DNA from: Bacteroidota bacterium
GTDB taxonomy: Bacteria > Bacteroidota > Bacteroidia > Chitinophagales > Chitinophagaceae
DNA: 50,690 bases
Assembly (NCBI GenBank): GCA_003175695.1
Contig: PSRA01000245.1
Location: forward strand, 1-50,690
Direction: 5' to 3'
The notes beneath the pieces were generated by a model. That model searched no databases and had not been told where the DNA came from. It saw nothing but the letters and a program-made list of their open reading frames with translations. The translations under genes and the position numbers were made by a program. Below, in pieces: positions 1 to 19,069 of the stretch; position 1 is the stretch's first letter, and every line of letters begins with the position of its first letter.

Positions 1-72
1 CCCTTTAGCTCAGTTGGTTAGAGCATCTGACTGTTAATCAGAGGGTCGCTGGTTCAAGTCCAGCAGGGGGAG
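1..72 (+). tRNA. tRNA-Asn (anticodon GTT), lacking its first base
   Basis: The stretch folds as a complete cloverleaf apart from base 1, which lies just outside the window. The anticodon stem TCTGA/TCAGA encloses the loop CTGTTAA, so the anticodon is GTT (Asn). The T-arm is GCTGG/CCAGC around TTCAAGT. The 3' acceptor strand AGGGGGA (65-71) pairs with the 5' strand if the missing base is T. The discriminator is G72 and is followed by CC. The gene's 3' end is the integration site of the element that follows. Confidence 0.95.
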
Positions 73-1570
73 CCTCACTTGACAGGCCATCAGCAATGAT
101 GGCTTTTGTATTTGGCTTTTGTCCGAAAGTGATTGAATCAGAACAGATTAACGAAAGCAATGTGCTCTCTTCCCCGGTTCGATACTTTTCGCCGTCAAAA
201 ATCAATTTTCCCGGGAATATCGAATCAATGATTTTGTGTTTTATTTCCAAAGGAGCGTTAGTAAAGTAAAATGTGATTTTTGACAGAAAGGAAATGCCAT
301 ACATCAAATGGTGGTCAAATCTCGTTTCTACCACAGATAATTCACAGTTAATTTGCTCCATTCTGGCAATTTCTTCCTTCACGGTCCCGGATATGCGCCG
401 ATAATCATCATCAGCAATGCTACCACTGACCCACTTGAAATCCAGTGATTTTAATTTCAAATTCATTTCCGCCAATTTGTTTTTGTTATCCATCAACCTT
501 GACTCTTTCGTCCCTTCATGCTCTTCAAAAACATCTCGCAGGATTTCCGTGTAAAGTTCTGCCACCTCAGTGTTCACCCTGATGTTCGCCAGGAATGATT
601 CAAATTTAGAGTTGACTAAGTCTGCTTCAATTCTTTCCTTGCAACCATGTTGACAATGATAATAATGGTATTTTTTATTCCTGCCCTTAGATGAACTTGC
701 AGTTAAATTGTTGCCACATATGCGACATTTCAGATGTCCACGAAGTGGAAATAGCAGTTTGATTTTTGAGGGTTTGGCCTGTTTCCGGTTTCTACCGTCA
801 AGTATTGCCTGCACAGCTGAAAAAGTATCCTCGTCGATAATCGGTTCATGGATGCCCTTTACAACTTCGCGTGGTTCATTTTTCCATGCATCCAATACAA
901 TTTGTCCTGTATAAAATGGATTTCTCAATATGTTTAGCAGTGATTGTTTACTGCATTTAAAACCGGCCCTGTTCAATTCTTTGCGGATAGCATCTGGTGT
1001 TTTTAAGCCCAGGCTTACCAGCCTGAATGCTTCAATAACGAAGTGCGCATCAGGACTCTTCTTCACTATCTTTGTGACTGGATCATTTACATAGCCTTTG
1101 GGTGCCTTCCACATCCATCTACCTTGGCGTAACGCCTGACGCATTCCCTGCTTCGTATTTATGCCCCTCCTTTCATTTTCCACCTGCGGCATCGCCATCT
1201 GGATGACCAATGGGATAAGATTTTCTGGAATGGCTTCATCATAATTATTTTCCAGAAATTGGAGGTCGACCCCGAGCTCTTTGAGGGTGGCTTTCATTGC
1301 CAGGGACTCCAGGAGGTTCCTGGAAAATCTATCCCACCTGACTACAACTAACTGCTTAGGTTTTATCTTTTTTGCCTTCAGGTCTGCAAGAAACTGCTGG
1401 AATTGTGGACGATTAAAATCCTTCGCAGAATGATCGTCCTGGTAATGCTTCAAAATATTTTTTCCGTGTTGTTCGCAGTAAGCTCGCAAACGCCTTTCCT
1501 GGTCTTGTAGGCTGAAGCCTTTTTCCCGTTGGTCGTCAGTTGATACTCGGGTGTATATTACAGCGTCCAT
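38..1570 (-). CDS. Large serine recombinase (site-specific integrase)
   Basis: This 510-residue protein has the full large-serine-recombinase plan. A resolvase catalytic domain covers about 1-140, with nucleophile Ser10 in YTRVSTDDQ and the conserved Arg cluster RWDRFSRN. A Recombinase domain covers about 150-260. A zinc ribbon follows (CRIC, then two later Cys near 310), and then a coiled coil at about 350-410. It should catalyse integration and excision of the surrounding element at the tRNA 3' end. The last residues, APPAGLEPATL, are antisense tRNA sequence, so the stop codon lies inside the tRNA gene. The native tail appears to be encoded at 14511-14658, at the other end of the element. 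The start ATG overlaps the small upstream gene. Confidence 0.95.
   Translation of the reverse strand: MDAVIYTRVSTDDQREKGFSLQDQERRLRAYCEQHGKNILKHYQDDHSAKDFNRPQFQQFLADLKAKKIKPKQLVVVRWDRFSRNLLESLAMKATLKELGVDLQFLENNYDEAIPENLIPLVIQMAMPQVENERRGINTKQGMRQALRQGRWMWKAPKGYVNDPVTKIVKKSPDAHFVIEAFRLVSLGLKTPDAIRKELNRAGFKCSKQSLLNILRNPFYTGQIVLDAWKNEPREVVKGIHEPIIDEDTFSAVQAILDGRNRKQAKPSKIKLLFPLRGHLKCRICGNNLTASSSKGRNKKYHYYHCQHGCKERIEADLVNSKFESFLANIRVNTEVAELYTEILRDVFEEHEGTKESRLMDNKNKLAEMNLKLKSLDFKWVSGSIADDDYRRISGTVKEEIARMEQINCELSVVETRFDHHLMYGISFLSKITFYFTNAPLEIKHKIIDSIFPGKLIFDGEKYRTGEESTLLSLICSDSITFGQKPNTKAIIADGLSSEAPPAGLEPATL
66..74. other. attL core of the integrative element (GGGGGAGCC)
   Basis: This 9-bp block at the tRNA 3' end recurs exactly at 14659-14667. 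It lies inside the 3' coding end of the recombinase on the minus strand. Exchange at this core joins the recombinase frame to an open frame at the far end in the same codon phase. A short shared core fits serine recombinases, whose crossover is 2 bp. The exact crossover dinucleotide cannot be read from one integrated copy. Confidence 0.8.
86..107 (+). terminator. Element-derived terminator after tRNA-Asn
   Basis: GCCATC (86-91), loop AGCAAT, GATGGC (98-103) and a T run follow the tRNA by 12 bases. It is inside the element and inside the recombinase coding region on the other strand, so the element appears to replace the tRNA terminator it displaced. Confidence 0.7.
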
Positions 1571-1709
1571 CAGTCAAATTTTTTTTGATTAATTCATATT
1601 CAAGTCTGGCAATTTTATAAAGCAATTCTCTTATTTTTTTCACTTCTTCATCGTTGTATTTTTTGCCGTCGGCATTCAAAATTTGAGTGCTTTTGGTAAC
1701 TGAGACCAT
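1536..1709 (-). CDS. Small protein overlapping the recombinase start
   Basis: A 57-residue frame starts MVSVTKSTQI and is charged and probably helical, with an EEVKKIRELL stretch. Its last 35 bases overlap the recombinase start in another frame, which suggests translational coupling. It reads in the direction of the recombinase and lies immediately upstream. The family was not recognised. A role as an accessory of the recombinase is only an inference from position. Confidence 0.5.
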   Translation of the reverse strand: MVSVTKSTQILNADGKKYNDEEVKKIRELLYKIARLEYELIKKNLTDGRCNIHPSIN

Positions 1710-1787
1710 CGTCTAACAATTCAGCATGCCTTCCAGTTTTTTTTGGTAAGGTCAGCGGTTTGCATTTGCTCGTTGATTTCAACATAG

Positions 1788-2597
1788 CTAAAATTTTTCT
1801 TTTATAATATGTGTGATATTCTTTATCTCGCCATTTTCTGTTTTGACAGTTATCTCATCATAATTGCTTTCTCTCAAAATCTTATAAAGTTCTTTCTCAA
1901 CTTTTGCAACTTCTTTTACGAGCGTTATGATTTTACCGTTTTTTAATTTGACTGAAATGGATTTAAATGCGCCGGTCCTTATTTCGAGAATTAGTTTCAT
2001 CTCACTCGATGATAATTCCAAATTATTTCCCCGCAAAACTTCTAATTTTCTATCCTTATACAAGCCTTGAATTAATCTGTGGAGACTTATGCTTATGTGG
2101 TTGTCTAATTCCGACAATTGATTTTCCAATTCGATTTCTTCTTGGCTTGCAATCTGAATATCAAAATCCTTAAAAACTAAAAAATAGACTGGTTTCCGAA
2201 ACGATAAAAAGTACGCACAATAGAATTCAAGCAGAGGGTAAACGGAAGGACATTGCTTTTCGGTTGTCCTTAAAAGCTTCTCCTTAATATGTCTAATATT
2301 TTCTATAGACACCCCAAATTTTCTTAATTCAACTATTAATTGAATCCAGACAGCATCAACAAAACTAAATTTGCGCCATCCAGTGCCTTCTTCTCCTCTC
2401 TCTACTTTAAACAGGCCATTTTTTTCCCAATGATTTAAGATTCGATAGCTGAGGTCTTCTGTGTTTATTTTTCTATCTCTGCGATTTAATTTTTCTCTAA
2501 TGTGAAGACCGTCTTCGGAAAAATAATTTGAACATAATAAATCGAATTTGTCGCTTAAAGCCCAAAAGTCATTAAACGCCTTTTCATTCTCATCCAT
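1788..2597 (-). CDS. MerR-like transcriptional regulator
   Basis: The protein has 269 residues. Residues about 45-115 resemble a MerR-type winged helix: LSYRILNHWEKNGLF, then a wing with GWRKFSFVDAVWIQLI, then a helix with ELRKFGVSIENIRHIKEKL. The remaining ~150 residues match no domain I know and may be a sensor or dimer region. It is transcribed divergently from the helicase/type III operon across a 157-bp gap with two palindromes (2640-2655 and 2671-2684). It is therefore a good candidate for controlling that operon and its own expression. Such control would let a newly arrived element express methylase before nuclease, but that timing is inference. Confidence 0.7.
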   Translation of the reverse strand: MDENEKAFNDFWALSDKFDLLCSNYFSEDGLHIREKLNRRDRKINTEDLSYRILNHWEKNGLFKVERGEEGTGWRKFSFVDAVWIQLIVELRKFGVSIENIRHIKEKLLRTTEKQCPSVYPLLEFYCAYFLSFRKPVYFLVFKDFDIQIASQEEIELENQLSELDNHISISLHRLIQGLYKDRKLEVLRGNNLELSSSEMKLILEIRTGAFKSISVKLKNGKIITLVKEVAKVEKELYKILRESNYDEITVKTENGEIKNITHIIKEKF

Positions 2598-2639
2598 AAT
2601 TCTTACTTATTGGTAATATCTGCTAAAGATATGAAAAAT

Positions 2640-2684
2640 CTTTCCAATAGGAAAGTTTCATTAAAAATGTGAAACAATAGTTTC
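2640..2684. promoter_or_regulatory. Twin palindromes in the divergent regulator/helicase promoter region
   Basis: CTTTCC-AATA-GGAAAG spans 2640-2655 and GAAAC-AATA-GTTTC spans 2671-2684. Both are perfect inverted repeats with the same AATA centre, and the centres are exactly 30 bp apart, about three helical turns. A looser repeat, GTTTCA/TGAAAC, overlaps the second. The position between divergent genes, one encoding a MerR-like protein, suggests operator sites bound on the same face of the DNA. Confidence 0.5.
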
Positions 2685-2754
2685 GCAACACCTATTTTTT
2701 AATTTACATGACACAACATATTGAATTTAAATATATTATAGATAAAGTGGAGCT

Positions 2755-5565
2755 TTGAATTTCTGCTACTTACAAGAAACACCATGCGAAAATTGTATGT
2801 TTACTAATTGTGTGAGATTAGGCTGTTTTGCCAACAAAAGACCAACAAGAATGAGACATACAATAGAGCAAACAGATGCAATTAACACTATTGATAAAAA
2901 CCTTCTTATCATAGCTTGTGCGGGTTCAGGAAAGACCCAAGTGATTTCTGAGCGCGTTATTAATATTCTTGAGCAAGGTATCCATCCCTCAAAAATTATT
3001 GCATTTACATACACGGAAAAGGCAGCTGCAGAATTACAAGCAAGAATTTTAAAACTATGCAGGGAGAAATTGCCAGAACTAAAAGGCCTCGCGGAAATGT
3101 ATATCGGCACGATTCATTCATGGTGCTTGAATGTATTGCAGGACTACAAATATGAATTTCAAAAGTTCTCTGTTTTGGATGAAATTAAACTGAAGCTCTT
3201 TGTTGAACGAATGTTTAATACCATTGGGATGAAAGACCTTAATATGGAAAGATTTAAGGATACCGGGCATTTTATCCAATTGATGGGGATACTCAGGGAA
3301 GCGGAATTTGGCAATCGGGCAGATGTGCCTGAAGAACTTTTCAGTGCTGTAGATTCTTATGAAACCACATTGCTTCATAGTTGTTACCTTGATTTCACAA
3401 TGATTATGACGAAGGCTTTTCAATTCCTCAAACATGATGAAGCCTTTCGAACTAAAATAAAACAGAATATTGGTTTTTTAATCGTTGATGAATACCAAGA
3501 TGTAAACCCCATCCAGGAATTAATAGTCCGGGAGCTTTATGAACTTGGTGCAAATACATGTGTTGTTGGTGACGACGACCAAACAATCTTCCAATGGCGC
3601 GGAAGCGACATTGACTATATACAGCACTTTATGGTTCGCTACCACAACGTGAAAGAGGTTATTTTGAATGATAATTTTCGCAGTTCAAAGGCAATCGTTG
3701 ATGTTGCTTTAAAAGTGATAACAAACAATTCGGCAAGGCTTTCGAAGCAAATGGTTGCAAAAGGATTCCAGTCATATGAGAAAGGGGATATTCTTTACAA
3801 TCAGTTTGCATCCGTGGATGAAGAAAATAAATTCATTGTAGATTCAATCAGAAATCTTAGAGGCACTAAATTTCAAGATAAACTCGAAACTGAACCAAGA
3901 GGGCTTGACTATTCAGACTGTGTTATACTTGTACGTAAATGGAAGAAAGCTGATGCTATAATTGAAGCTCTTCAAGCAGCACAAATCCCATTTATAGTTA
4001 CTGGCGTAAACAATCTATTCCAACGTCCCGAAGTCGGAGCAGCGAGAGCAGTATTTATGTACCTAAATGATCAATTAGACAAGGCAACTTTAAAACATCA
4101 TTGGCAATCTCTTAGCGACAAAATACGAGATCAAAAACTGAATGAGGCTGTTTCCTATTTAGACAATAATAAGCCGCGGAAAAGCACATATTACGAACGA
4201 TTCAACATCCAGGCAATCTTTCAAACATTTCTGGACAAAGTAGGTGTCCGAGAAGACATCTTCGCTAGCGAAGACGAACAAGAAGTATCGGGATTTAACA
4301 ATGAAGAAATTATTTTTTATAATCTCGGAATGTTCAGCCAAATCATTCACGATTTTGAGACCATTTATTTTACGTACAGCCCCGAAAGGAAACTCTTAAC
4401 CTTTCTAAACTTTCTGCTATACTCAGCAGCAGATTATTATCCTGAAGGCTGGCAAAATAATACATACAAAACACCAAACGCCGTCCAAATCATGACCATA
4501 TATCAGGCTAAGGGTTTAGAATTTCCTGTTGTTTTTGTGCCAGGGCTTAACAAGAACTACTTACCCTCCAAGCAACCATCGGGGAAACAAGTTTGGCATT
4601 TCATTGACCGAAACCTTATTAAAGGTGTCGAACGCTATTTCCCAAGAGAGGAGGATGAACGAAGACTTATGTATGTCGCAATAACCAGATCAAAGAAGTA
4701 TCTTCTAATGAGTAGAGCGCCAGATGGAAAACTACAGGGACAAGAATCTATTTTTGGCAAGGAAGTGCGAAAATCTGATTATGTAATCATATCACCAAAT
4801 CGTGATTTTTCTGAAAGGGTACGTACAACGCCCAAACCTTTTCTCGAAAGCTCGAGTATTTCGTTGAACTTCTCATTGCTTAAGTCATTTTTTGATTGTC
4901 CATATAGTTTCAAATTCAAAACATTCTATGGCTTTATTCAACCAATCAATGCCAGGCAGGGGTATGGCTCAGCTATTCACAATACATTGATGGAGCTTCA
5001 CCGAGAATATCTTGATGGAAATCAAATACTTAAAGAACAGCTAAATAATCTACTTCATCGACATACAAATTTTCCTTACGCGACTGAAACTATTAGAACA
5101 GACATGACAACAAGGGCCGACAATGCTGTGAACATTTATTATGATAAAAATTCAACTGAGTTTATTCAAATAGAATTTGCCGAGAAAGAAATTCAACTTG
5201 ATTTAGGGGATGGAATTATTGTTAACGGAAAAATGGATTTGATTAAAAAGAAAAATCTTGATGGTTCAATTGAGAAAACCATTGTTGATTTTAAATCGAC
5301 CGAGGATGCGCAAGCGTATAACGCTACAATTGACCAATTACAACTCTATGCGTTAGGTTATCGTAGTCTTACCGGCGAAAATGCGGATTTCTTACAGATC
5401 TACAACTTAGATACTAATGAAGGCTTTAAAAACGAACTAACTGCACATGACCTTGATTCAATTAAGAAAAAAATAATTTCAGCAGCTAACGACATTAGAA
5501 ATAACAATCTCAACCATACATGCAATAATCCTGAGTGCGTTTGCAAATTCAAAACAACTAAATAA
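2755..5565 (+). CDS. UvrD/PcrA-like helicase with C-terminal PD-(D/E)XK nuclease and Cys cluster
   Basis: The protein has 936 residues. SF1 helicase motifs are in order: Walker A CAGSGKT ending at Lys60-Thr61, DEYQD near 243, GDDDQTIFQWRG, NFRSS, YQAKGLEFPVVFVPG and LMYVAITRSKK. The C-terminal ~230 residues form a RecB-like nuclease: Asp in GKMD near 828, then DFK near 845-847 and QLQLYALGY. One Cys near 715 plus three at the C-terminus (C-x4-C-x-C, about 923-930) resemble the Fe-S cluster of AddB/Cas4 nucleases. Translation starts at TTG 2755 if the Cys-rich N-terminus (C11, C14, C19, C24) is real. ATG 2851 is the alternative. Only 9 bp separate it from mod, so it probably shares the type III operon and processes DNA ends or invading DNA. 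Confidence 0.85.
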   Translation: MNFCYLQETPCENCMFTNCVRLGCFANKRPTRMRHTIEQTDAINTIDKNLLIIACAGSGKTQVISERVINILEQGIHPSKIIAFTYTEKAAAELQARILKLCREKLPELKGLAEMYIGTIHSWCLNVLQDYKYEFQKFSVLDEIKLKLFVERMFNTIGMKDLNMERFKDTGHFIQLMGILREAEFGNRADVPEELFSAVDSYETTLLHSCYLDFTMIMTKAFQFLKHDEAFRTKIKQNIGFLIVDEYQDVNPIQELIVRELYELGANTCVVGDDDQTIFQWRGSDIDYIQHFMVRYHNVKEVILNDNFRSSKAIVDVALKVITNNSARLSKQMVAKGFQSYEKGDILYNQFASVDEENKFIVDSIRNLRGTKFQDKLETEPRGLDYSDCVILVRKWKKADAIIEALQAAQIPFIVTGVNNLFQRPEVGAARAVFMYLNDQLDKATLKHHWQSLSDKIRDQKLNEAVSYLDNNKPRKSTYYERFNIQAIFQTFLDKVGVREDIFASEDEQEVSGFNNEEIIFYNLGMFSQIIHDFETIYFTYSPERKLLTFLNFLLYSAADYYPEGWQNNTYKTPNAVQIMTIYQAKGLEFPVVFVPGLNKNYLPSKQPSGKQVWHFIDRNLIKGVERYFPREEDERRLMYVAITRSKKYLLMSRAPDGKLQGQESIFGKEVRKSDYVIISPNRDFSERVRTTPKPFLESSSISLNFSLLKSFFDCPYSFKFKTFYGFIQPINARQGYGSAIHNTLMELHREYLDGNQILKEQLNNLLHRHTNFPYATETIRTDMTTRADNAVNIYYDKNSTEFIQIEFAEKEIQLDLGDGIIVNGKMDLIKKKNLDGSIEKTIVDFKSTEDAQAYNATIDQLQLYALGYRSLTGENADFLQIYNLDTNEGFKNELTAHDLDSIKKKIISAANDIRNNNLNHTCNNPECVCKFKTTK

Positions 5566-5574
5566 GAAGATCCT

Positions 5575-7539
5575 ATGCCTAAAATATATACAGGCTCGCT
5601 ACAATTAGATTGGTATAACAAACAAAAAGCTATTCTGCTTGCAAATTCTTCAGAAGTTTCATCCATTGAAATGACACCCGCTCCCAAAGTCAATTGGGTA
5701 AACAAGGATGAAGCGCTTTTTTATGAAATTAATGAAGATGAAGGTCGTGGCCTTAGGCCTTTTTGGGTTGACCGTAATGACATACGAATAAAAGAGGCAC
5801 GGCCTCTAACCCTTCAAAAAGTTTACTCTGCGATTTCAATAAATAGCCAGGGAACATTGCCAGGAATGCAAATGACTTATGAAGTTGTAGAATCGCAAAG
5901 TGAGGAAATTCAATTTGAGAACATCCTTATTAAAGGAGATAATTTACTCGCTTTGAACGCCATAAAAAAAATATTCGACAACAAGTTGGAGTCTGAAAAG
6001 GTGAAATGTATCTACATTGACCCACCTTTTAATACTGGGCAAGCATTTGATTATTATGACGATAATTTAGAAAGATCTGAGTGGCTCACTATGTTAAGAG
6101 ATAGAACCGTTATTCTAAAGTCGCTGTTAAGAGAAGATGGGTTTTTTATAGTTCACCTTGATGATTCAGAAGTCCATTATTGCAAAGTTTTAATGGACGA
6201 GGTGATGGGTTCTTCCAATTTTATTTCGCATGTAACTTATGAAAGGTCTGGTGTTGCAGGTTTGGGCCAAGGTGGTTTTTTGGTCAATACAACAGAGCAT
6301 ATTCTATTGTATAGAAACGTACTGCCTCCTCTTGGCAACAACGTTGGAAGTTATGCATTGGATGAAAATACAATTAGACGTTATAATAGAATCTTAAATA
6401 ACACAGGAGACTCAACTTTAGTCGAAGAATTTATTTCTAAATCTAATAAAAAGCCAGTTAAAATCTTCAAGCATTCAAACTTTGAAATAGAAACAATTTC
6501 ACTTTCTAATTTCAAGGAAAGAGAGGCAGAAATCAGGAGGATATACGCTAAAAATTTGAATTTCCTTTTTAGAGGCAACCAAGTTCAAAAAGAAAACTCT
6601 TTTCAAAACGATTTAATTGATAAAATGGAGAAAGATTGCCTTTATTCAGTTATTTATACTCCGAGCCGGGGAAGATTTAAGGATGAAGAAACGACACTCT
6701 ACTACTTTAATAAAGAGCTCTTATCTTGGTTAGGTGATAACGCTGTTGTCGATGGGGATGACATTGTTAAGTCCTTAAAATTAACCACACTCTGGGATCA
6801 TGAAGACATTCCGAAGGCAGATATTGCAAATGAAGGCGGTGTTGATTTTCCGCGGGGAAAAAAACCTGAAAATCTTTTAAAAAGAATATTTGATTTGTGT
6901 ACAAATGAAGGGGATTTGATTTTAGATTGTTTTGCTGGTTCAGGAACTTCTTTGGCAGTTGCTCATAAAATGAACCGAAAATGGATAGGTGTTGAAATCG
7001 GGAATCATGCGGATACCCACATTATTCCGCGACTGAAGAATGTACTTTCTGGAAGTGATCAATTAGGAATCTCGAAAAAGGTAAATTGGAAAGGAGGCGG
7101 ATCTTTCAAGTATTATCACTTAGGTAGTTCAATTATTAAAATCCAGAAAGACACTTCTGGCGATTTTAACTGGTCACTTGGCAAACATTTTATTGAGGAA
7201 TCACTTTTGCATTCTTATGATTACATTTTAGATACTACAATCGATTTGTCTGCTGATAATCTTTTTTCGAACAAAGAGGAACTTCCTGTTGTGGGAGTTC
7301 AAAGAATCGGCTCGAGAAACCGCGTTGCAATAGTCTCACTTAACGAACCCGAAGGCAATTTAGGTAACTTGGCTTATGAAGAATTACAAGCCCTTTATAT
7401 TGCAGTAAAAAAGAAATATGCGCCAGAATATATTAACATCTTTACGAATCGAGGTATTGAAATCGCTTTTGATTCAAAACCTGATGACCTTGAAGTAGTC
7501 AAAGTTCCTCATGCAATATTTGCAGAATTAGAAAAATAA
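5575..7539 (+). CDS. mod: Type III restriction-modification methyltransferase subunit (Mod)
   Basis: This is a 654-residue amino-methyltransferase of the beta order. The catalytic motif DPPF (149-152) comes first and the AdoMet-binding motif with FAGSGT (about 453-458) comes later, near ILDCF and KWIGVEIG. The region between, about 160-420, is the variable target-recognition part. It should methylate adenine in a short asymmetric site and provide sequence recognition for the Res subunit. It lies between the helicase gene (9 bp) and res (3 bp), so the three are almost certainly co-transcribed. The recognition sequence cannot be read from the protein. Confidence 0.9.
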   Translation: MPKIYTGSLQLDWYNKQKAILLANSSEVSSIEMTPAPKVNWVNKDEALFYEINEDEGRGLRPFWVDRNDIRIKEARPLTLQKVYSAISINSQGTLPGMQMTYEVVESQSEEIQFENILIKGDNLLALNAIKKIFDNKLESEKVKCIYIDPPFNTGQAFDYYDDNLERSEWLTMLRDRTVILKSLLREDGFFIVHLDDSEVHYCKVLMDEVMGSSNFISHVTYERSGVAGLGQGGFLVNTTEHILLYRNVLPPLGNNVGSYALDENTIRRYNRILNNTGDSTLVEEFISKSNKKPVKIFKHSNFEIETISLSNFKEREAEIRRIYAKNLNFLFRGNQVQKENSFQNDLIDKMEKDCLYSVIYTPSRGRFKDEETTLYYFNKELLSWLGDNAVVDGDDIVKSLKLTTLWDHEDIPKADIANEGGVDFPRGKKPENLLKRIFDLCTNEGDLILDCFAGSGTSLAVAHKMNRKWIGVEIGNHADTHIIPRLKNVLSGSDQLGISKKVNWKGGGSFKYYHLGSSIIKIQKDTSGDFNWSLGKHFIEESLLHSYDYILDTTIDLSADNLFSNKEELPVVGVQRIGSRNRVAIVSLNEPEGNLGNLAYEELQALYIAVKKKYAPEYINIFTNRGIEIAFDSKPDDLEVVKVPHAIFAELEK

Positions 7540-7542
7540 GAT

Positions 7543-10500
7543 ATGCCAAAAAGAAAACCTAAAGCCCAAACTACCTATTTCGAAAAACATTCGAAGCTCC
7601 TTGCGAACGTTGTCAAATCATATCGTGAAAGCACTTCATCGTTTAATCTATTTGCAACAAGCGATTTTGCAGCTTTTAATTCTATAGAGAATGGCATTAC
7701 AAAACATCCATTACGGTATTATCAGATGGATGCATTGTACATGCTTGACTATCTACTCAAATGCAATGATAGCAGACCAGAAAAAAAAGACCTCTTAGAA
7801 ATTGTTGATGAAGAAAAGCACATAAAGGCGCCGTTCTTAGGTTACGAAATGGCTACTGGTTCCGGTAAAACCATGCTGATGGGTGCGAGTATATATTTTT
7901 TAAATGAAAAGTTTGGCATCGATAACTTCTTAATTATTACGCCAGCATCAACCGACATTTATCAAAAAACAATTAGAAATTTCCAGTTGGGCAATTTCGA
8001 TTCAATATGGGCAGATGATACACCATTTACTTTCAATTTAATCACTGGCGACAATTATACACAAAATCTTTTTTTTGATAGTAACAAGGACGCAAATATC
8101 TTCATTTTTAACATTAGCAAGTTTGGTGCAAACGCAACGAATACTGAACTAACTTGGGAGTCGGCAATATGGCAAGACGAAAAAGGAAACAATATTAGTA
8201 TTAAGCAATTTCTAAAAGACAAGAAATTAATCATCATTACTGACGAAGCACATCATGCACAAACCAGGGTCGCTTCAAAAATTATTCGAAACTTCCATCC
8301 CTCTGCTGTTCTTGAATATACAGCTACGGCAATTGAAAATGAAAAGAGCTTAGATAAGAAGAATCAAACGATAATATATAAATATGATATACGCAGATTT
8401 TTGGAAGATGGTCATGGAAAATTAGTAAGAGCAGTCGCTTTGGCAACTGGAAACAAGAGTAAGAAAGCCGATGTGAGTAGTAATGAAAAATTTAAATTGG
8501 TAACACTATTCTTGATTCACTTGTTAAAGAAGGAAGCTATATTGTTAGACCCCAAAAGCAAAAATTTAAAGCCTATTGCCTTTGTCAAGGTCAAAAATGA
8601 CACGGGTTACACTCAAAAAATTTTTGACTATATAAAAAACGACCTTGCCGATGACCTTGAAAGCATTAATATTATTATCGAAAAAATTAAAGCGCAAGAC
8701 CTTGAAATAACCTCATTACTTATAGAGCTCTATAAAGGCAAATACCAGGACAAAATAGATATGCTTCGTGAAGATGTTAGAAAGGCCGCAAGCACAGCCA
8801 TATTCTATCATGGCCAGTCCAGCAAAGAAACTGAAAAGAAATTTCTGAATATTAGGAAAAACGAAGTTGAAATAATTGTCTACATGCAACGTCTCGATGA
8901 GGGGATTGACCTTCCAAACATATATTCGATGGCAGTTATAAATGACACGGAAACAGATTTTAAAACCTCTGTGAAGCAAATTATTGGCAGGGGGATAAGG
9001 CTTAATAAAGACAAAAGAGAATTTGATGACGAAAAGAATTCATTTAAAGCAAACGCGGAGAAATTACATATCATTTGTGACCAGGGCAAAAATTTCGAAG
9101 AAGTTATAGTGGCAATACAGCAGGAATTTGGCTTAAACAACAAGTATCTTAGCTTTGATAAAATCCGGACTCCAGTAATCAATAAATCAAAACCAGATTT
9201 ATTAACTGGCAAGTACATCCCACACATTAAGGCCGATTTGAAGGCGAAACAGGATGTCAATCTTATTTCACTTATTACAAATGTACAGGGAATTACGTCA
9301 AAATTTGTAGAAGATAATTGCTTGGAAGGTGAAAATGATACCGTAAAAAGGTTTCTCAAATATCGGCCCGACCAATTCTTTGTAGAAGTTGACATTTTCT
9401 CTGATAAGAAAGTTTATCACAAGCAAATCAAGGAAGAAGGTGGCGAACCTACTACTCTCCAAATAACAGATAAGGAGCTAAAAAAAATTTATGGCCTGGT
9501 ACAAAAGACGCTGCCCTGTCTACCCGATACAGAGACTTCAAAAAAAGCTTTTAAAGACTATATTGACACTTTTAATCAAATAGGCTTACAATATTATAAA
9601 TTAGATGACGCAGATGAAAAATTAGCTTTGAAGCTATTTGTCGATGCGTTTAGTTTTTATTATCGAAACAAAATAGAAAAGGACTATTTCGTTCTTGACT
9701 TCCGCCAGCTTAATGAGGAGGAAAGTTGGAGCTTAAAAAAAGAATTTCATGATTACGAATTAAGAATTCCTGAAGACCAGGTTGGAAACAACGTCCGATT
9801 GAAGGCTATGGATAAGCAAAAGATAATTGAACTAATTGAAGCTCAGTACAACTTCTACGGTTATGAAAAATCAATTTACGACTATGAAAAGTTTGACTCA
9901 TATACCGAGTACAAGTTAGCTCAATATGCCGATGAAATATTAAAAAAGGTTGCTAAAGAAAAAAAGCCGTTTTGGATTCGCAATCAGCGAAACATTTTCT
10001 TTAGCTACGGCTCGAAAAGGTATTTTCCTGATTTCATTATGTTTAAGGACGATATGATATATGTCATTGAAACAAAGGGCGAGGTTTTCTCTGACACCAA
10101 GAAAAACGCGTTACTGAAAAAATTGGACGAGGTTCCTGGGGAAGGCGGGATAAAAGGATTCAAAGGTATACTCGTATTTTCTTCCCAAATGGAAGAAATG
10201 GGAACTGATGTAGTTGAGTGGGATAAGTTTATTAAAGAAAGCGAGGAAACTTTGATTCGCCAGCAATCGCAAGACCAGTTGATTTCTGAGCCCAATGAAG
10301 AAGATAAATTCATTAAATATATTCCTGTATATTCACCCGATAAAGCCTATCGTAAATTTATTAAACTTCAGAAGACTCCAAAACCTGAGGGTTGGCTTGC
10401 CCTTAAAAATAACAATTCTAAATTACCTGAAACTGTTTTTGCTACACAAGCAAAAGGGCAAGCACTTTCACCATCGTACCCCCATAACGCATGGGTAATC

Positions 10501-10761
10501 TTAATTCATTCAAAAGATTTTGATGAAGCCACTGGGAAGCTGGCGCTTGTTTATAGCCTTGTAATAGAAGATGAATATGGGGGAAACTGCACCATTCGAA
10601 AGGTTGAAATTGAGGAAACAAAAGCCAAAGGCAAGTTATTTGGCGAAAAGCGAGTAATGCTCTGTGCGCTCAACTCAGAAAATAAACCGATAGTAATTGA
10701 CAATATTACTTCAAATGATGAATTAGAAATAGTCGGTCTTGAATATGTACTTCAAAATTGA
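7543..10761 (+). CDS. res: Type III restriction enzyme helicase/endonuclease subunit (Res)
   Basis: The protein has 1072 residues. SF2 helicase motifs are Walker A ATGSGKT (104-110), DEAH (234-237), a motif V region with DEGIDLP and motif VI QIIGRGIRL. A PD-(D/E)XK endonuclease follows: PD near 829-830 and ETKG near 843-846, as in EcoP1I/EcoP15I Res. About 225 residues beyond the nuclease are extra; they start around SPDKAYRKFIKL and end LEIVGLEYVLQN, and I do not recognise them. Res needs Mod for recognition and uses ATP to move or diffuse to a second unmethylated site before cutting. The gene follows mod by 3 bp. Confidence 0.9.
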   Translation: MPKRKPKAQTTYFEKHSKLLANVVKSYRESTSSFNLFATSDFAAFNSIENGITKHPLRYYQMDALYMLDYLLKCNDSRPEKKDLLEIVDEEKHIKAPFLGYEMATGSGKTMLMGASIYFLNEKFGIDNFLIITPASTDIYQKTIRNFQLGNFDSIWADDTPFTFNLITGDNYTQNLFFDSNKDANIFIFNISKFGANATNTELTWESAIWQDEKGNNISIKQFLKDKKLIIITDEAHHAQTRVASKIIRNFHPSAVLEYTATAIENEKSLDKKNQTIIYKYDIRRFLEDGHGKLVRAVALATGNKSKKADVSSNEKFKLVTLFLIHLLKKEAILLDPKSKNLKPIAFVKVKNDTGYTQKIFDYIKNDLADDLESINIIIEKIKAQDLEITSLLIELYKGKYQDKIDMLREDVRKAASTAIFYHGQSSKETEKKFLNIRKNEVEIIVYMQRLDEGIDLPNIYSMAVINDTETDFKTSVKQIIGRGIRLNKDKREFDDEKNSFKANAEKLHIICDQGKNFEEVIVAIQQEFGLNNKYLSFDKIRTPVINKSKPDLLTGKYIPHIKADLKAKQDVNLISLITNVQGITSKFVEDNCLEGENDTVKRFLKYRPDQFFVEVDIFSDKKVYHKQIKEEGGEPTTLQITDKELKKIYGLVQKTLPCLPDTETSKKAFKDYIDTFNQIGLQYYKLDDADEKLALKLFVDAFSFYYRNKIEKDYFVLDFRQLNEEESWSLKKEFHDYELRIPEDQVGNNVRLKAMDKQKIIELIEAQYNFYGYEKSIYDYEKFDSYTEYKLAQYADEILKKVAKEKKPFWIRNQRNIFFSYGSKRYFPDFIMFKDDMIYVIETKGEVFSDTKKNALLKKLDEVPGEGGIKGFKGILVFSSQMEEMGTDVVEWDKFIKESEETLIRQQSQDQLISEPNEEDKFIKYIPVYSPDKAYRKFIKLQKTPKPEGWLALKNNNSKLPETVFATQAKGQALSPSYPHNAWVILIHSKDFDEATGKLALVYSLVIEDEYGGNCTIRKVEIEETKAKGKLFGEKRVMLCALNSENKPIVIDNITSNDELEIVGLEYVLQN

Positions 10762-10857
10762 CTAAGTCTTACTAATAAAATCAACCGCCTTTATTCTTAC
10801 CAAAGGAGTATCGAAAGCGGCAAAAACTGTCATCCTAAAGAGGCCAAACAGTTTTAA

Positions 10858-11025
10858 GTTCATCAGCTCATTTGGGCATATATTATTTCGGTCACACCAT
10901 ACTTGAAAGTAAAACCAAAATTTGGTGACGGCACTTTGACAAAAATGGACTTTGAAAAAAATCACATTCTGTTCTTGGAGACTGATATGAATTATCTAAA
11001 TAAATTATTTGAGAACAAAATCTAA
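10858..11025 (+). pseudogene. Possible 3' remnant of an unknown gene after res
   Basis: An open frame of 55 codons without a good start reads like the end of a real protein; it contains ISVTPYLKVKPKFGDG and ENHILFLE-like text (FEKNHILFLETDMNY). It follows res by about 100 bp in the same direction. The family is not recognised. The rest of 10762-11146 shows no other convincing gene and no terminator hairpin. Confidence 0.3.
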
Positions 11026-11146
11026 AGCGGTTTAAATCAGATAATTTTCATTTATGGTATGCAATGGATACTTTCCATGATTGGTCAACAGTGTAGTATT
11101 CTGGGTTTTCCATAATATGGGAGTCCATTGCAAAGTAAAAGATAAA

Positions 11147-12331
11147 TTACCATCCTGGAACAGGCTTTGGTTTGTAGTTTTCAATCGGGTATCGCATAAT
11201 GACTACTGAATATTTTGTCGAACAATTAGGGTAACCTGCAATATTGCAAGCCTGAATATCAAGATATGCAGAACAATTAATTATTAATTCCCAAACATCA
11301 AAATGGTCTCCAACGACCCTGTTAAGAATGTATTGGTGAATGTTCTCTGAATGTCCATTGTGGCTATTTATATTGATTCTATATTTTCTTGGTTGGCCAT
11401 TAACCACCTCATTATTATTCTCGATTAATAATACGGTAGCTCCATTTTGACTGCTATTTACAGCCTTATACTCGTTATCAGCATAAGACTGTTCAAATTC
11501 CGACCGAGTGTAAATAGTGCCCACCAGACTAATAATTTCACTGTGAAGTGTTCTATACTCGAAACCTTTGGAATAACATGATAAGAATGGTCTTGTTTCA
11601 GTTTTCCCATTTTTGGTAATAGTCATGGTTTTACCCTCATCACATTCTCCAGTTTTATTAAAAATATATAATTCTCCGTTGGCATAAAATACTGTTTCAC
11701 TATGATTAGTAGATTTTTCTTTAGGTTCAATATTGCCTACGTTGGAGTGGCTTCCAATTCTTAATAGACGATAAGCAATATAAATATCCTTACCAGTCAA
11801 TTTTATCGATTTGTGATTAGAATATGCTTCCTGCGCTGCAATTTTTAAATTTTGATTTCGGGGGCTGACGTTTATCCCCAATGTGTCAGAAATATTTTTC
11901 CCAGTACCAATCTCTACACTGCCTGCTTTTACGGCCTCCCATATAACTACTGTCTGGTCTGAAAAATTGATCTTAAAAATATCACCAACAGATACAATCT
12001 CCAGATTCTTCAATTTAATGGAAAGATTTTTATCATTTTGATAGCTTGGATTGATGCCCAGCCAACTAAGGATGGAGAATCTGACACCAGCATTGAAACC
12101 TGATGAATTGTCTACATCGTATGTTTCAACAGAAATTGTGTGATTCAGGCTTTGTGAGTCCAATCCAGCATAATTTATTGGACCAATATTTTCGCTCCAT
12201 TGAGCGCCTATTGGAATATCAGTTCGTGGCAGACTTAAAACATTAAATTCCTGCAAGGCATTCGCAATATTCTGCGCGTATAGTGCACAAGTAGCGATAG
12301 AAAATAACGCGATTAAGTAAAAATACTTCAT
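11147..12331 (-). CDS. Secreted protein of unknown function, downstream of the caspase gene
   Basis: This 394-residue protein begins with a clear Sec signal peptide (about 1-20, cleavage after YAQ). No domain was recognised. The mature part is rich in Asn, Ser and Tyr and looks like a beta-rich extracytoplasmic protein. It contains a few Cys residues, including a late group (NCS, ACN, NCS) that could form disulfides. It is 47 bp downstream of the caspase-domain gene on the same strand, so the two are probably one transcript. An exported partner beside a cytoplasmic caspase is odd for a defence pair. It could be a target, an envelope sensor or an unrelated passenger. Confidence 0.75.
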   Translation of the reverse strand: MKYFYLIALFSIATCALYAQNIANALQEFNVLSLPRTDIPIGAQWSENIGPINYAGLDSQSLNHTISVETYDVDNSSGFNAGVRFSILSWLGINPSYQNDKNLSIKLKNLEIVSVGDIFKINFSDQTVVIWEAVKAGSVEIGTGKNISDTLGINVSPRNQNLKIAAQEAYSNHKSIKLTGKDIYIAYRLLRIGSHSNVGNIEPKEKSTNHSETVFYANGELYIFNKTGECDEGKTMTITKNGKTETRPFLSCYSKGFEYRTLHSEIISLVGTIYTRSEFEQSYADNEYKAVNSSQNGATVLLIENNNEVVNGQPRKYRININSHNGHSENIHQYILNRVVGDHFDVWELIINCSAYLDIQACNIAGYPNCSTKYSVVIMRYPIENYKPKPVPGW

Positions 12332-12378
12332 AGAATTTCGTTTTTGATTTCGCAGATTTGATCTACAACCTCATTGTC

Positions 12379-13839
12379 CTATCGATTAAAGTAAAAGTCT
12401 GCGGTAAGCGACGTTGATTCCCAAGGAATTTGTTCTTCTTTTGATTTATCCATCACTTCTAATCTAACCTTTTGGAACAAGGTAGTTACTGGTAAGCCTT
12501 TTTCGGGCATGTAATTCAAAAGAGCTTCAGTATACAACCCATTATTGCCACTTCCGTCACTCGCTGTGTTACCTGGAGATGTTGAGTAAGCTATTAAAGA
12601 GCCCTTGGGAGCATTCATCATTGCCAAGCCACGCTGATTGATGCCGCGCGCCCAACTTCGCTCAAACGGATTGTTTCTGCATGCGTCTAAAATTAGAAAA
12701 TTAACTGAGGTTCTTGCCTCCTCCATATACGCCAGTAATCTTCCAGCTTCAACACAATCGTATTCGACAAGTTTTTCAATGGCGAGCTTTGCGTCAATTG
12801 GTATTAAATAATTTAGACCTTTCACTTGCACCCCATGACCTGCGAAATAGAAAAGTCCCACGTCGCTTCCCTTCAGTTTATCACCGAATTCGTCAATTGC
12901 CACTTTTAATTCCTTTTGGGAAGGATCTATTTTTTTTGTGACTTCAAACGCAAGTGAACTAAGCATTGATTCCATTCCGTTTGCATCATTTAGTGGATTT
13001 ACAAGTGAATTAGCATGCTCATAAGAGCTGCATCCTACAACTAAAGCTTTTCTTATTTCAGATTTTACGCTACCAGTAGTTGAACCAGGAGTTGATTTTA
13101 CAAATCCAATTTCAACTGGGGAAAAGATTGGATGACCTACGATTGCCTCGGATTTTTCGAGTGTAAATCCGTCGCGTTTAAGATTATTTATATATATTTC
13201 AACTAACGTTGTTAATTCCTCCTTGTTAGTTCGCACAGCAGGATGGAGAGTCAAACACAAAAAATCAAGGAATTCTTTATCGGGAGCATGCAAAATATTA
13301 AATCTATTGTCAGTGAACACCCATTCTACAGGCCAGTCATCATTCAATACTGTATGCCTTTGGATATCCTCTGAGGCAGTTTCATACCTTGAATCATTTG
13401 ACGGTAAATGCGTCAAATCATACAGTCTCCCGAGAAAGGTTCGTTGATCAAGATTACCGTACCATGTAATTCTTGTAATTAAAAAAGCATCAAGAATATT
13501 TCTGCGTGTCGACAATTGAATTTTTTTTGCATTTGAATTCTGCGTTTTTTTCTCAATTTCATTTTGTCGTTTATAAGTACTTCTGATCTTGCCACCATTA
13601 CCCATAAATGTTTCGCCCTGTGAAGACGTAATCATAAAGTCTCCGTCATAGAAATCAATTTCTTTCCCTTCCCGCAATTCTCTCAAAATGTTCATAATTG
13701 TCACTCGCAGATTTTTTTGCTGATTGAATGTTAGGTCTACGGATTGTTCAGCGATAATTGGAGCAATGTCAACGTTGGCTAACGGGTTTCCGTCGACCAA
13801 TGCGAGTAGCTTCTTTGTTAAATCGTACCTGTCTATCAT
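12379..13839 (-). CDS. AbiJ_NTD3-like/caspase (C14) fusion protein, candidate abortive-infection effector
   Basis: The protein has 486 residues. About 1-85 looks like a small helical/winged-helix region. About 108-230 resembles the AbiJ N-terminal domain 3 seen in phage-defence proteins: RRNILDAFLI, ITWYGNLDQRTFLGRLYDL, PSNDSRY, DDWPVEWVF and LTLHPAVRTNKEE. About 265-486 is a metacaspase-type peptidase with the catalytic dyad His335 in YFAGHG and Cys387 in LDACRNNPF. The family cleaves substrates after basic or acidic residues once activated. Bacterial caspases often act in abortive infection, triggered by phage. Domain identification is from memory of the family patterns. It sits in the defence element and precedes the secreted-protein gene. 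Confidence 0.8.
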   Translation of the reverse strand: MIDRYDLTKKLLALVDGNPLANVDIAPIIAEQSVDLTFNQQKNLRVTIMNILRELREGKEIDFYDGDFMITSSQGETFMGNGGKIRSTYKRQNEIEKKTQNSNAKKIQLSTRRNILDAFLITRITWYGNLDQRTFLGRLYDLTHLPSNDSRYETASEDIQRHTVLNDDWPVEWVFTDNRFNILHAPDKEFLDFLCLTLHPAVRTNKEELTTLVEIYINNLKRDGFTLEKSEAIVGHPIFSPVEIGFVKSTPGSTTGSVKSEIRKALVVGCSSYEHANSLVNPLNDANGMESMLSSLAFEVTKKIDPSQKELKVAIDEFGDKLKGSDVGLFYFAGHGVQVKGLNYLIPIDAKLAIEKLVEYDCVEAGRLLAYMEEARTSVNFLILDACRNNPFERSWARGINQRGLAMMNAPKGSLIAYSTSPGNTASDGSGNNGLYTEALLNYMPEKGLPVTTLFQKVRLEVMDKSKEEQIPWESTSLTADFYFNR

Positions 13840-14091
13840 TTTACATTTGAAAATGAGACTATAATTGCGTTAGATTATATTCTTTTATGTGCCCCTGGAG
13901 GTTTTTGCAAGAAATGTACTTAGGCGAAAATAAATGAATTGGTTCAAAAAATTGTTTATGTGGAGCTTTCTGTTGGATTGTGGCCCATGTTTGCCATTTT
14001 GGCGTTAAAGGTTAAATTTGAGAGATAAACCGTTTGGGGGCTGCTACCCTCTACAGGAGACTTAGCACAACCCGACCCCAACTATCCAAGT

Positions 14092-14229
14092 CTATTTCAT
14101 GGCGCTATTGTACCGAACTAAGTCTGTTCTTACCCCATTTAGGCCATTCGAACGGAGACCCTGCAGCTCTTCCCTAAATTGGGCGAGGCTTCTAAAGGAC
14201 TTCGATACGTAAACTGTGCTGGTTGCATC
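14092..14229 (-). other. In-frame 45-codon extension after the stop of the 85-aa gene
   Basis: The TAG ending the 85-residue gene is followed in the same frame by 45 sense codons (starting DATSTVYVSKSFRSLAQF, ending YNSAMK). The text looks protein-like. It may be a decayed longer gene, a readthrough tail or a separate short gene using a nearby start. The neighbouring 13840-14091 shows no gene. Confidence 0.3.
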
Positions 14230-14487
14230 CTAAATCCATTCCAACGGGTCCTTCTCTTTAGCATCGACCAAATCAATGGTCTGCATCTTGGGAAATACAT
14301 AGGGCATTAATTTGATCAGTAGCTCTATTTTCATTTTCGTGTCCGTAATGCTGTCTAAATATTGAGGTAGGTTTTGGACTTCCTTTTCCAGCGCCTCTCT
14401 AAGCATTGTCCTAAGTTCAATCGTGTTACGATTGGGGACACCTTTGATCCTGCCACCAATCTTGCTATGTCCTGCTTCAAATGCCAT
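14230..14487 (-). CDS. Small basic protein of a mobile-element type (GGRxKGxPN motif)
   Basis: The protein has 85 residues and begins MAFEAGHSKIGGRIKGVPNR. The GGR-x-KG-x-PN segment resembles the N-terminus of small phage and island proteins of the DUF5681 type; the rest is helical (LREALEKEV, IELLIKLMPYVFP). Function is unknown. It lies 24 bp downstream of the displaced recombinase tail and reads the same way, so in the excised circle it would follow the recombinase gene directly, as an operon partner. Confidence 0.55.
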   Translation of the reverse strand: MAFEAGHSKIGGRIKGVPNRNTIELRTMLREALEKEVQNLPQYLDSITDTKMKIELLIKLMPYVFPKMQTIDLVDAKEKDPLEWI

Positions 14488-14510
14488 AGTTATTACTATT
14501 TAATACTACT

Positions 14511-14658
14511 TTATTGATTCAATACTAAAGTGGGAGGATAATGCCTGAATATGGCAGAGTTGTTCATCTGCGTCGTTTCTACCGAAGTATCGATAAAACG
14601 GCTTAGACCATATACTCTAAGTAGATCTTCCTTGAATTGGTTCGAGAACAAAACACTT
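14511..14658 (-). other. Displaced 3' end of the recombinase gene (used only in the excised circle)
   Basis: Across the attR core the minus-strand frame reads APPS VLFSNQFKEDLLRV and continues to VLNQ and a stop at 14511. The recombinase at attL reads SSEAPP through the same core in the same phase. Joining the ends therefore gives a recombinase of about 550 residues whose last 48 are encoded here. In the present arrangement this segment has no proper start of its own; an apparent frame from 14738 merely reads chromosomal sequence into it. Confidence 0.75.
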
Positions 14659-14667
14659 GGGGGAGCC
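14659..14667. other. attR core of the integrative element (GGGGGAGCC)
   Basis: This is an exact copy of the tRNA 3' end core at 66-74. The next bases (CAAGTAGACA and a strong terminator) look like the original flank of the tRNA gene. Left of the core is element DNA, as shown by the recombinase tail. Confidence 0.8.
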
Positions 14668-14676
14668 CAAGTAGAC

Positions 14677-14703
14677 AAGTCGGCAAATTTGCCGACTTTT
14701 TTA
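14677..14703 (+). terminator. Perfect-palindrome terminator, presumably the original tRNA-Asn terminator
   Basis: An 11-bp perfect inverted repeat, AAGTCGGCAAA/TTTGCCGACTT, is followed by a T run on the plus strand. It begins 10 bases after attR. Before insertion it would have followed the tRNA-Asn gene. Confidence 0.8.
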
Positions 14704-14796
14704 TTTTCGAATTCGCTCAGGGTGATAGTATACTCCAAGGGGTAATTAATTAGTTGCTCTGAATTGAAGACTTTTTTAATACCGCTTTTAAATCGT

Positions 14797-15003: not shown

Positions 15004-15288
15004 GGATCAGTGCGCAAAGAGGCAGGCCACTGCACCTTAGAACAGATAATGGTCCTGAATTTATCAGTCACAGACTTCAGCAATGGTGTTTAGCAAACAA
15101 TATTACTATACAATATATCCAACCTGGAAGACCCATGCAAAATGCTTATGTGGAAAGAAAAGAATGGCAGCCTGAGAAGAGAACTGCTCGATGCCTACCC
15201 TTTTTTACAACTCGAAAAAGTGAGAATGATGTGCGAGGAATGGAGAATGTATTACAACAACAAAAGGCCGCCTAAAGCTTTGGGTTAA
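15003..15288 (+). pseudogene. IS3-family transposase (OrfB) remnant, frameshifted
   Basis: The frame reads RPLHLRTDNGPEFISHRL, holding the second Asp of the DDE triad, then IQPGRPMQNAYVER with the third acidic residue. A frameshift near 15150-15160 moves the rest (SLRRELLDAYPFLQLEKV, YYNNKRPPKALG) to another frame. Only the C-terminal part of the integrase core is left and no terminal inverted repeats were found. It is inactive. Confidence 0.8.
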
Positions 15289-18849: not shown

Positions 18850-18911
18850 GTGAAGAGTATAGTTGACTTGTATGATCAAGTTGTGACGATTACCTGAAGC
18901 AGAAAGGGAGG
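18838..18911 (+). pseudogene. Degenerate tRNA-like stretch (possibly tRNA-Thr, TGT)
   Basis: AGAGTATAG-TTGACTTGTA resembles the D-arm/anticodon region of tRNA-Thr(TGT), and the 3' end GGGAGGAGCC followed by a terminator resembles a tRNA 3' end. The T-arm and 5' acceptor strand do not fold, so it is not a working tRNA. It could be a relic of an old integration site. The call is by eye and weak. Confidence 0.3.
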
Positions 18912-18928
18912 AGCCTTACTGGACAAAC

Positions 18929-18950
18929 CCGCATTTTCGCGGTTTTTTTT
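18929..18950 (+). terminator. Rho-independent terminator after the tRNA-like stretch
   Basis: CCGC (18929-18932), loop ATTTTC, GCGG (18939-18942), then eight T residues. It follows the tRNA-like 3' end by 17 bases, as terminators follow tRNA genes. Confidence 0.6.
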
Positions 18951-19069
18951 AATTTTTCGATCCGCCGAAACCATTGACTGGCCTGCATATCAGCGAGACT
19001 ACCGAATTCAGGCGAGCGGTTCGAGGTTTCTTATTTTACAAAATTGAGCATCTTTTTGAAGGCATTCTC

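Follow-up and report, generated by a model that had tools for sequence, protein, structure and literature searches.

What happens to a recombinase whose gene is cut by the very attachment site on which it acts? The question is raised by a mobile element at the start of contig PSRA01000245.1, a stretch of 50,690 nucleotides analysed here at full length (the window; contig G000:C119 in our set) from a Chitinophagaceae member of the Bacteroidota (GCA_003175695.1). The source assembly is fragmented (275 contigs, 78.8% complete). A sequence-only reading of this DNA had proposed that the recombinase gene of the element is divided by its own attachment site, so that the tail of the protein changes on integration. 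Our analysis upholds this for the window and extends it to relatives. We consider it rather likely that this is an element directed at transfer RNA (tRNA) genes, with attP, the attachment site of the circular form, placed inside the coding sequence of a large serine recombinase, and that only the circle would encode a C-terminal tail whose loss resets directionality.

The recombinase gene is divided by its own attachment site

The core GGGGGAGCC occurs exactly twice in the window, in the tRNA gene at the contig start and at the far end of the element (Table 1); 100 dinucleotide shuffles held a mean of 0.12 copies, and none held two. Both copies are entered in the same phase by the recombinase gene, as had been claimed. 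In the integrated state the open reading frame (ORF) encodes 510 residues, ending in LSSEAPP followed by AGLEPATL, the last eight being read antisense from the tRNA. Read from the far core, EAPP is instead followed by 48 residues ending in LVLNQ, which gives a circle form of 550 residues. Both endings are those given in the sequence-only reading, and its use of the core repeat to locate the two ends of the element is plausible. On this reading of the two cores, the gene is divided by its own attachment site and its tail would change on integration. Because the contig edge removes the first base of the tRNA at the window start, tRNA-Asn(gtt), a default scan misses it; a scripted ARAGORN run calls it with a start before the contig.

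The ORF belongs to the large serine recombinases: its Resolvase, Recombinase and zinc-ribbon domains follow one another in this order, all above Pfam cut-offs, so that the enzyme is not of the tyrosine type, and its relatives in the PDB include the A118 integrase. The predicted model (mean predicted local distance difference test score, pLDDT, 79; predicted template modelling score 0.37) contains long helices at residues 334-382 and 387-412, a coiled coil inside the zinc domain as in the fold of known integrases, and its top Foldseek matches are serine integrase complexes (E 3e-20, at a whole-chain template modelling score of ~0.3). Residues 478-510 have pLDDT below 50, which fits a flexible linker.

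The far end encodes a conserved tail

Far ends of related elements were located by their core repeats and downstream terminators in a first pass, which carried 11 candidates forward. In eight of these the motif GTTYGA is separated from the core by exactly 5 bp more than the T-loop of the tRNA is; the exceptions are G036, G014 and the first pick in G123. We then let the offset vary over 100 element records, many of them incomplete. Under strict limits (a core run of at least 6, at least 7 of 9 identities, and a terminator), ten of the 11 sites found, from eight elements, have the attP motif at offset +5, more distant by 5 bp than in attB, the attachment site of the target, and one has it at offset 0; the share is smaller under looser limits. 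The zinc domain of a serine integrase has been modelled as sitting closer to the crossover by 5 bp on attB, compared with attP (PMC3783163). Given this shift and the observed offset, the tRNA T-loop is probably the attB recognition motif, and we infer that GTTYGA is the zinc-domain site.

For coding tests, 18 far ends were chosen by eye from the core and motif candidates. Four (G036, G113, G115, G119_31) lie outside the filters of the offset scan, G117 has no terminator, and the anchor in G036 is a variant hexamer assigned by position. Early picks without the +5 motif in G014 (13906) and G123 (32811) were excluded from the statistics, the G123 site at 32681 being used instead; G121 and a second G014 candidate (48662), whose DNA scores equal some of those kept, have no terminator and were left out, and their peptides do not match.

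Read in the frame of the recombinase, the 18 far ends encode a peptide resembling FSNxF..DLxxLxxL, and 17 have no stop within 12 codons past the motif. Scored by BLOSUM62 over the 11 codons past the motif, the sites average 0.66 in frame; the other two frames give -1.04 and -0.71 (without the frameshifted G127b, 0.96 against -0.97 and -0.68), and the antisense strand scores at most 0.00. Only two in-frame stops occur, both in G127b, compared with 25 and 11 in the other two frames. Identity at codon positions 1, 2 and 3 is 0.42, 0.60 and 0.29 (17 sequences), and none of 2000 codon-order shuffles reached the observed score. Past the usual stop, in 16 far ends (G036 and G127b set aside), codons 24-34 score -1.43 and codons 40-50 score -1.29.

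A profile was built on seven tails, with the motif-encoded S-N excluded, and ranked over 4442 motif sites. Among seven terminator-backed +5 ends that had not been used for training, five (G101, G127a, G100, G007_27 and G123) rank at 15-31; G117 and G028_4, two of nine +5 candidates without a terminator, rank 11 and 33. From the top of the ranking, 17 further or related sites were displayed, of which 11 have, by eye, a hairpin and T-run (predicted free energy, ΔG, <= -12) just past a core resembling a tRNA end. Tail and recombinase similarity are modestly correlated (n=15, Mantel r 0.32; 53 of 5000 permutations gave as high a value). Judged by these comparisons, the tail is under selection at the protein level. 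Since the far-end peptide is conserved in this way, the recombinase made from the circle would end in a conserved C-terminal tail, which integration would swap for tRNA-antisense residues.

Conservation is confined to part of the tail. About 18 of the 48 residues are conserved in the window, and the expectation that homologues share the whole tail thus holds for its first ~18 residues and fails for the remainder. Modelled alone, the tail piece (ORF 14511-14738) has a helix at residues 33-43, NQFKEDLLRVY, with weak support (mean pLDDT 56).

The family targets tRNA and tmRNA genes and appears to supply their terminator

Relatives were found in 46 of 98 genomes searched, the source genome included. 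Twenty family members (set A1) were used to scan GTDB genomes and IMG/VR, with 80 loci kept from each; we examined 90 loci, namely the 80 genome loci and the 10 of 80 viral loci with the best E-values. The loci kept are the most similar ones rather than a random sample, and most are labelled Bacteroidota. At 67 of the 80 genome loci the recombinase ORF continues, in antisense, into a complete tRNA or transfer-messenger RNA (tmRNA) gene found by gene calling; the genes entered are of 19 kinds. By the narrower test of an ORF end inside such a gene the count is 51 of the 90 examined loci. All 67 loci of the first count are genome loci; several of the other 23 of 90 end, by eye, in tRNA-like fragments. 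The antisense target is tmRNA for the recombinases of L110, L115, L021, G112_8 and G117_64.

A hairpin followed by a T-run (ΔG <= -8) is present within the 75 bp of the recombinase gene that adjoin the tRNA in 74 of 77 records with a called tRNA, whereas the same test at five control offsets 200-1000 bp into the gene gave 3, 2, 0, 2 and 10 positives. The 3' end of the recombinase gene therefore appears, from this comparison, to provide the tRNA terminator, besides forming one arm of attP. With moderate confidence, which covers the switch account jointly, we describe a family of elements found mostly in Bacteroidota in which a large serine recombinase targets tRNA 3' ends and carries attP inside its own coding sequence.

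Table 1. Features of the element and of its flank in the window
Feature	Position	Strand	Basis
tRNA-Asn(gtt), tRNA side of attL/attB; T-loop motif GGTTCAA at 51-57	1..74	+	sequence; ARAGORN
core GGGGGAGCC at attL	66..74	.	repeat and shuffle count
large serine recombinase, integrated form; 38-74 antisense to tRNA, encodes last residues	38..1570	-	PF00239, PF07508, PF13408; PDB relatives including A118 integrase 4kis; Foldseek
hairpin and T-run within recombinase 3' coding end, likely replacement tRNA terminator	86..107	+	sequence; family comparison
conserved part of circle-only tail, SVLFSNQFKEDLLRVYGL	14604..14657	-	far-end comparison
full circle-only tail, 48 codons and stop; variable past conserved part	14511..14657	-	far-end comparison
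GGTTCGA, inferred zinc-domain recognition motif, far attP half-site; 5 bp farther from core than tRNA T-loop motif	14639..14645	+	sequence; offset scan; 5-bp shift modelled in PMC3783163
core GGGGGAGCC at far end	14659..14667	.	repeat and shuffle count
probable remnant of recombinase C-terminus, neighbouring (tandem) element; contains 14677 terminator	14668..14744	-	tblastn
second, frameshifted recombinase C-terminal remnant, at core-like GGGAGGAGCC (18906-18915)	18894..19035	-	tblastn; sequence

Probable tandem remnants, a natural fusion and cargo

The terminator at 14677 had been put forward as the mark of an empty tRNA-Asn locus. We rejected it as host flank, and it is probably not the terminator of the host tRNA, because the region around it resembles a recombinase C-terminus: by tblastn, the first remnant in Table 1 matches L076 (65% over 20 aa, E 0.002) and L008 (40% over 47 aa, E 0.022), the latter alignment extending into the tail. 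The second remnant matches L079 (E 8e-4) and L068 (E 0.005). These E-values are modest, 0.0008 to 0.02. With two such remnants, the locus is probably a decayed tandem array, which makes the 14677 terminator unsafe as a mark of the host flank. An empty site was sought in 33 genomes of the genus, the source genome included, with at most nine candidates scored in each, and only the source genome's own match reaches the junction; the nearest other match starts at window position 15045, and ARAGORN found no tRNA in the seven candidate loci fetched. In G005_13 (L325-L326), three far-end copies with the same tail, HFLSDLKLLASL, lie within ~8 kb, at concatenated positions 17621, 19913 and 25805, and are apparently a remnant array.

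The single-contig genome G036 holds one recombinase that reads straight into a tail, ENSNLLLEDLLDLCPLL. The tail of this fusion is VENSNLLLEDLLDLCPLLGITG, and its left neighbour resembles another far end rather than a tRNA. Three more copies of the fused far end, ~87% identical, are present in this genome, and among its loci L339-L342, four copies of one far end (one being the query), the DNA is similar also past the tail stop. Of 204 different ORF ends of the family in the DNA that was fetched, one carries the tail motif, that of this fusion. In the viral contigs, a search for the tail DNA pattern as a natural attP gave three matches, none of them behind a recombinase, and L143, L145 and L152, which were checked for phage genes, have junctions without the peptide.

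Between its ends the element carries defence-type cargo (2755-13839), comprising a UvrD-family helicase with a PD-(D/E)XK domain (GajB-like in PADLOC), type III modification and restriction genes, and an AbiJ_NTD3-caspase protein (Pfam/PADLOC). Pfam and PADLOC scans of the window genes returned no directionality factor; no search aimed at such factors was made. An 85-aa ORF at 14230-14487(-) without Pfam or PADLOC match adjoins the far end, 3' of the tail in the circle, and could be a directionality factor or unrelated.

Discussion

We propose a mechanism in which the two ends of the element would hold two parts of one enzyme. The catalytic, DNA-binding and coiled-coil parts would be encoded at the left end, and a short C-terminal tail, predicted at low confidence to be helical, at the right. 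A linker of ~30 residues would join them, and the DNA of this linker would also hold the tRNA terminator and the crossover core. By sequence, the gene joined as in the circle reads into the conserved tail, and the integrated gene reads into tRNA-antisense codons; the tail is thus readable only in a circle or a tandem, and the integrated copy has lost it. Integration would be the work of the tailed form, and once the tail is lost the resident enzyme may be less able to integrate again or may be shifted towards excision, so that the reaction itself would reset the directionality of its enzyme and the tail would set integration against excision. More tentatively, this may be a widespread family with a built-in directionality switch, in which recombination adds or removes a tail stored at the far end and so covalently replaces the role of a separate directionality factor.

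Integrases of the A118, phiC31 and Bxb1 type use a separate directionality factor, and their genes are not known to cross attP. Those of SSV-type archaeal viruses are tyrosine recombinases. The former share with the enzymes described here their domain order, coiled coil and modelled 5-bp zinc-domain shift between attP and attB (PMC3783163), and the latter share an integrase that extends across attP (PMC4383910). The closest precedents that we found are phage Mx8 and the streptococcal integrative and conjugative elements (ICEs) in rumA (both PMC4701971). In Mx8, attP also lies within the coding sequence of the integrase, IntP, and integration replaces the C-terminal 112 residues by 13, leaving an integrase that is called less active (PMC4701971) and whose specificity, according to a review, was altered without inactivation (PMC6070905). 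By analogy, Mx8 offers a functional precedent for a changed C-terminus, although it encodes a tyrosine recombinase (PMC4701971), whereas here we find large serine recombinases, tRNA and tmRNA targets and a conserved far-end peptide. In the rumA ICEs the att site likewise lies inside a serine integrase gene, the excised form has a different C-terminus, and the authors suggest that the two forms may differ in function (PMC4701971). There, however, integration is into a protein gene, and both proteins have their reading frame altered by the exchange. In our loci the target is not rumA but tRNA-Asn in the window and a tRNA or tmRNA gene in the 67 genome loci, entered at its 3' end, with a terminator supplied by the element and a conserved circle tail in frame.

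Within the passages covered by an open-access full-text search (subscription papers and preprints lay outside its scope), we found no serine recombinase that both targets tRNA genes and has a conserved tail limited to the circle. According to the 2014 Islander paper, serine recombinases with targets at tRNA and tmRNA 3' ends were not known; the main text of a 2022 survey of large serine recombinases contains neither "tRNA" nor "C-termin" (PMC10083194), and the available passages of PMC12884075 count attB sites in tRNA genes without a split by integrase class.

Several observations weigh against a tail-based switch. Far ends were located in a minority of the 100 scanned records, many of them incomplete, and the offset rule is less sharp under other limits: without the terminator requirement 12 of 26 sites fall at +5 and 14 elsewhere, and with looser core limits and a terminator 13 of 24 fall at +5 and 11 elsewhere. 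The S-N residues of the peptide are partly forced by the DNA motif, and openness alone is weak evidence, with 16 of 17 far ends open for 14 codons against 55% of 4262 background motif sites (binomial P 0.0005). Two of 13 terminator-backed +5 far ends have no good peptide (the frameshifted G127b, rank 3902, and the weak G034b, rank 339), nor do seven of the nine +5 candidates without a terminator, nor a G014 far end with core and terminator. Other tails occur in members whose recombinase gene does not enter a tRNA, both viral (L143, L145, L152) and in genomes (L071, L079, L085, G127_4). L143 has phage-type genes past the junction, one of them for a DNA primase, and may represent a naturally occurring attP that lacks the peptide, in which case part of the family may do without the tail. 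The single tailed ORF end among 204 would fit integrated copies, yet it leaves one natural fusion. Finally, it is putative that the tailed protein is expressed and that it differs in activity.

A simpler account, which we think unlikely though worth weighing, is that the gene merely contains attP, as it does in Mx8: the tail would be an ordinary end needed for full activity, and its loss would weaken the resident enzyme and stabilise integration with no active switch. The lower activity of the modified Mx8 integrase (PMC4701971) and its altered specificity without inactivation (PMC6070905) agree with this, as does the conservation of the tail in most located far ends. The integrated gene nevertheless stays open up to the tRNA codons, so that the resident protein shows no visible decay, and either it or another copy must serve for excision. 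That the far end is conserved solely as a DNA arm of attP, its open frame being incidental, seems very improbable to us. The S-N codons are indeed the antisense of the GTTCGA motif at a fixed +5 spacing, and some elements and viral loci have no peptide, but conservation runs ~12 codons past the motif, beyond the half-site of 25 bp with which the protein makes contact in the A118-type structure (PMC3783163). Moreover, the frame and codon-position tests indicate protein coding, and conservation stops at about the stop codons; an incidental reading frame was rejected. We also give little credence to the tail as a degradation or stability signal limiting the lifetime of the enzyme in the circular form. 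In several short tails the last residues are small and hydrophobic (e.g. LAALAA, LASIVA, LANLAI), which we take to resemble ssrA-type degrons; other tails, however, run for tens of residues to different ends (LVLNQ in the window, RIGSI in G066), and the best-conserved part is the SN..DL core rather than the last residues.

The one-way action of serine integrases underlies their use as DNA tools, and its cause is a central question. In a family whose reaction would rewire the C-terminus of its own enzyme, with a conserved tail encoded by the circle only, directionality would become directly testable with two versions of one protein. The 5-bp rule and the tail profile help to locate the far ends of such elements, and the family offers many serine recombinases directed at tRNA and tmRNA 3' ends.

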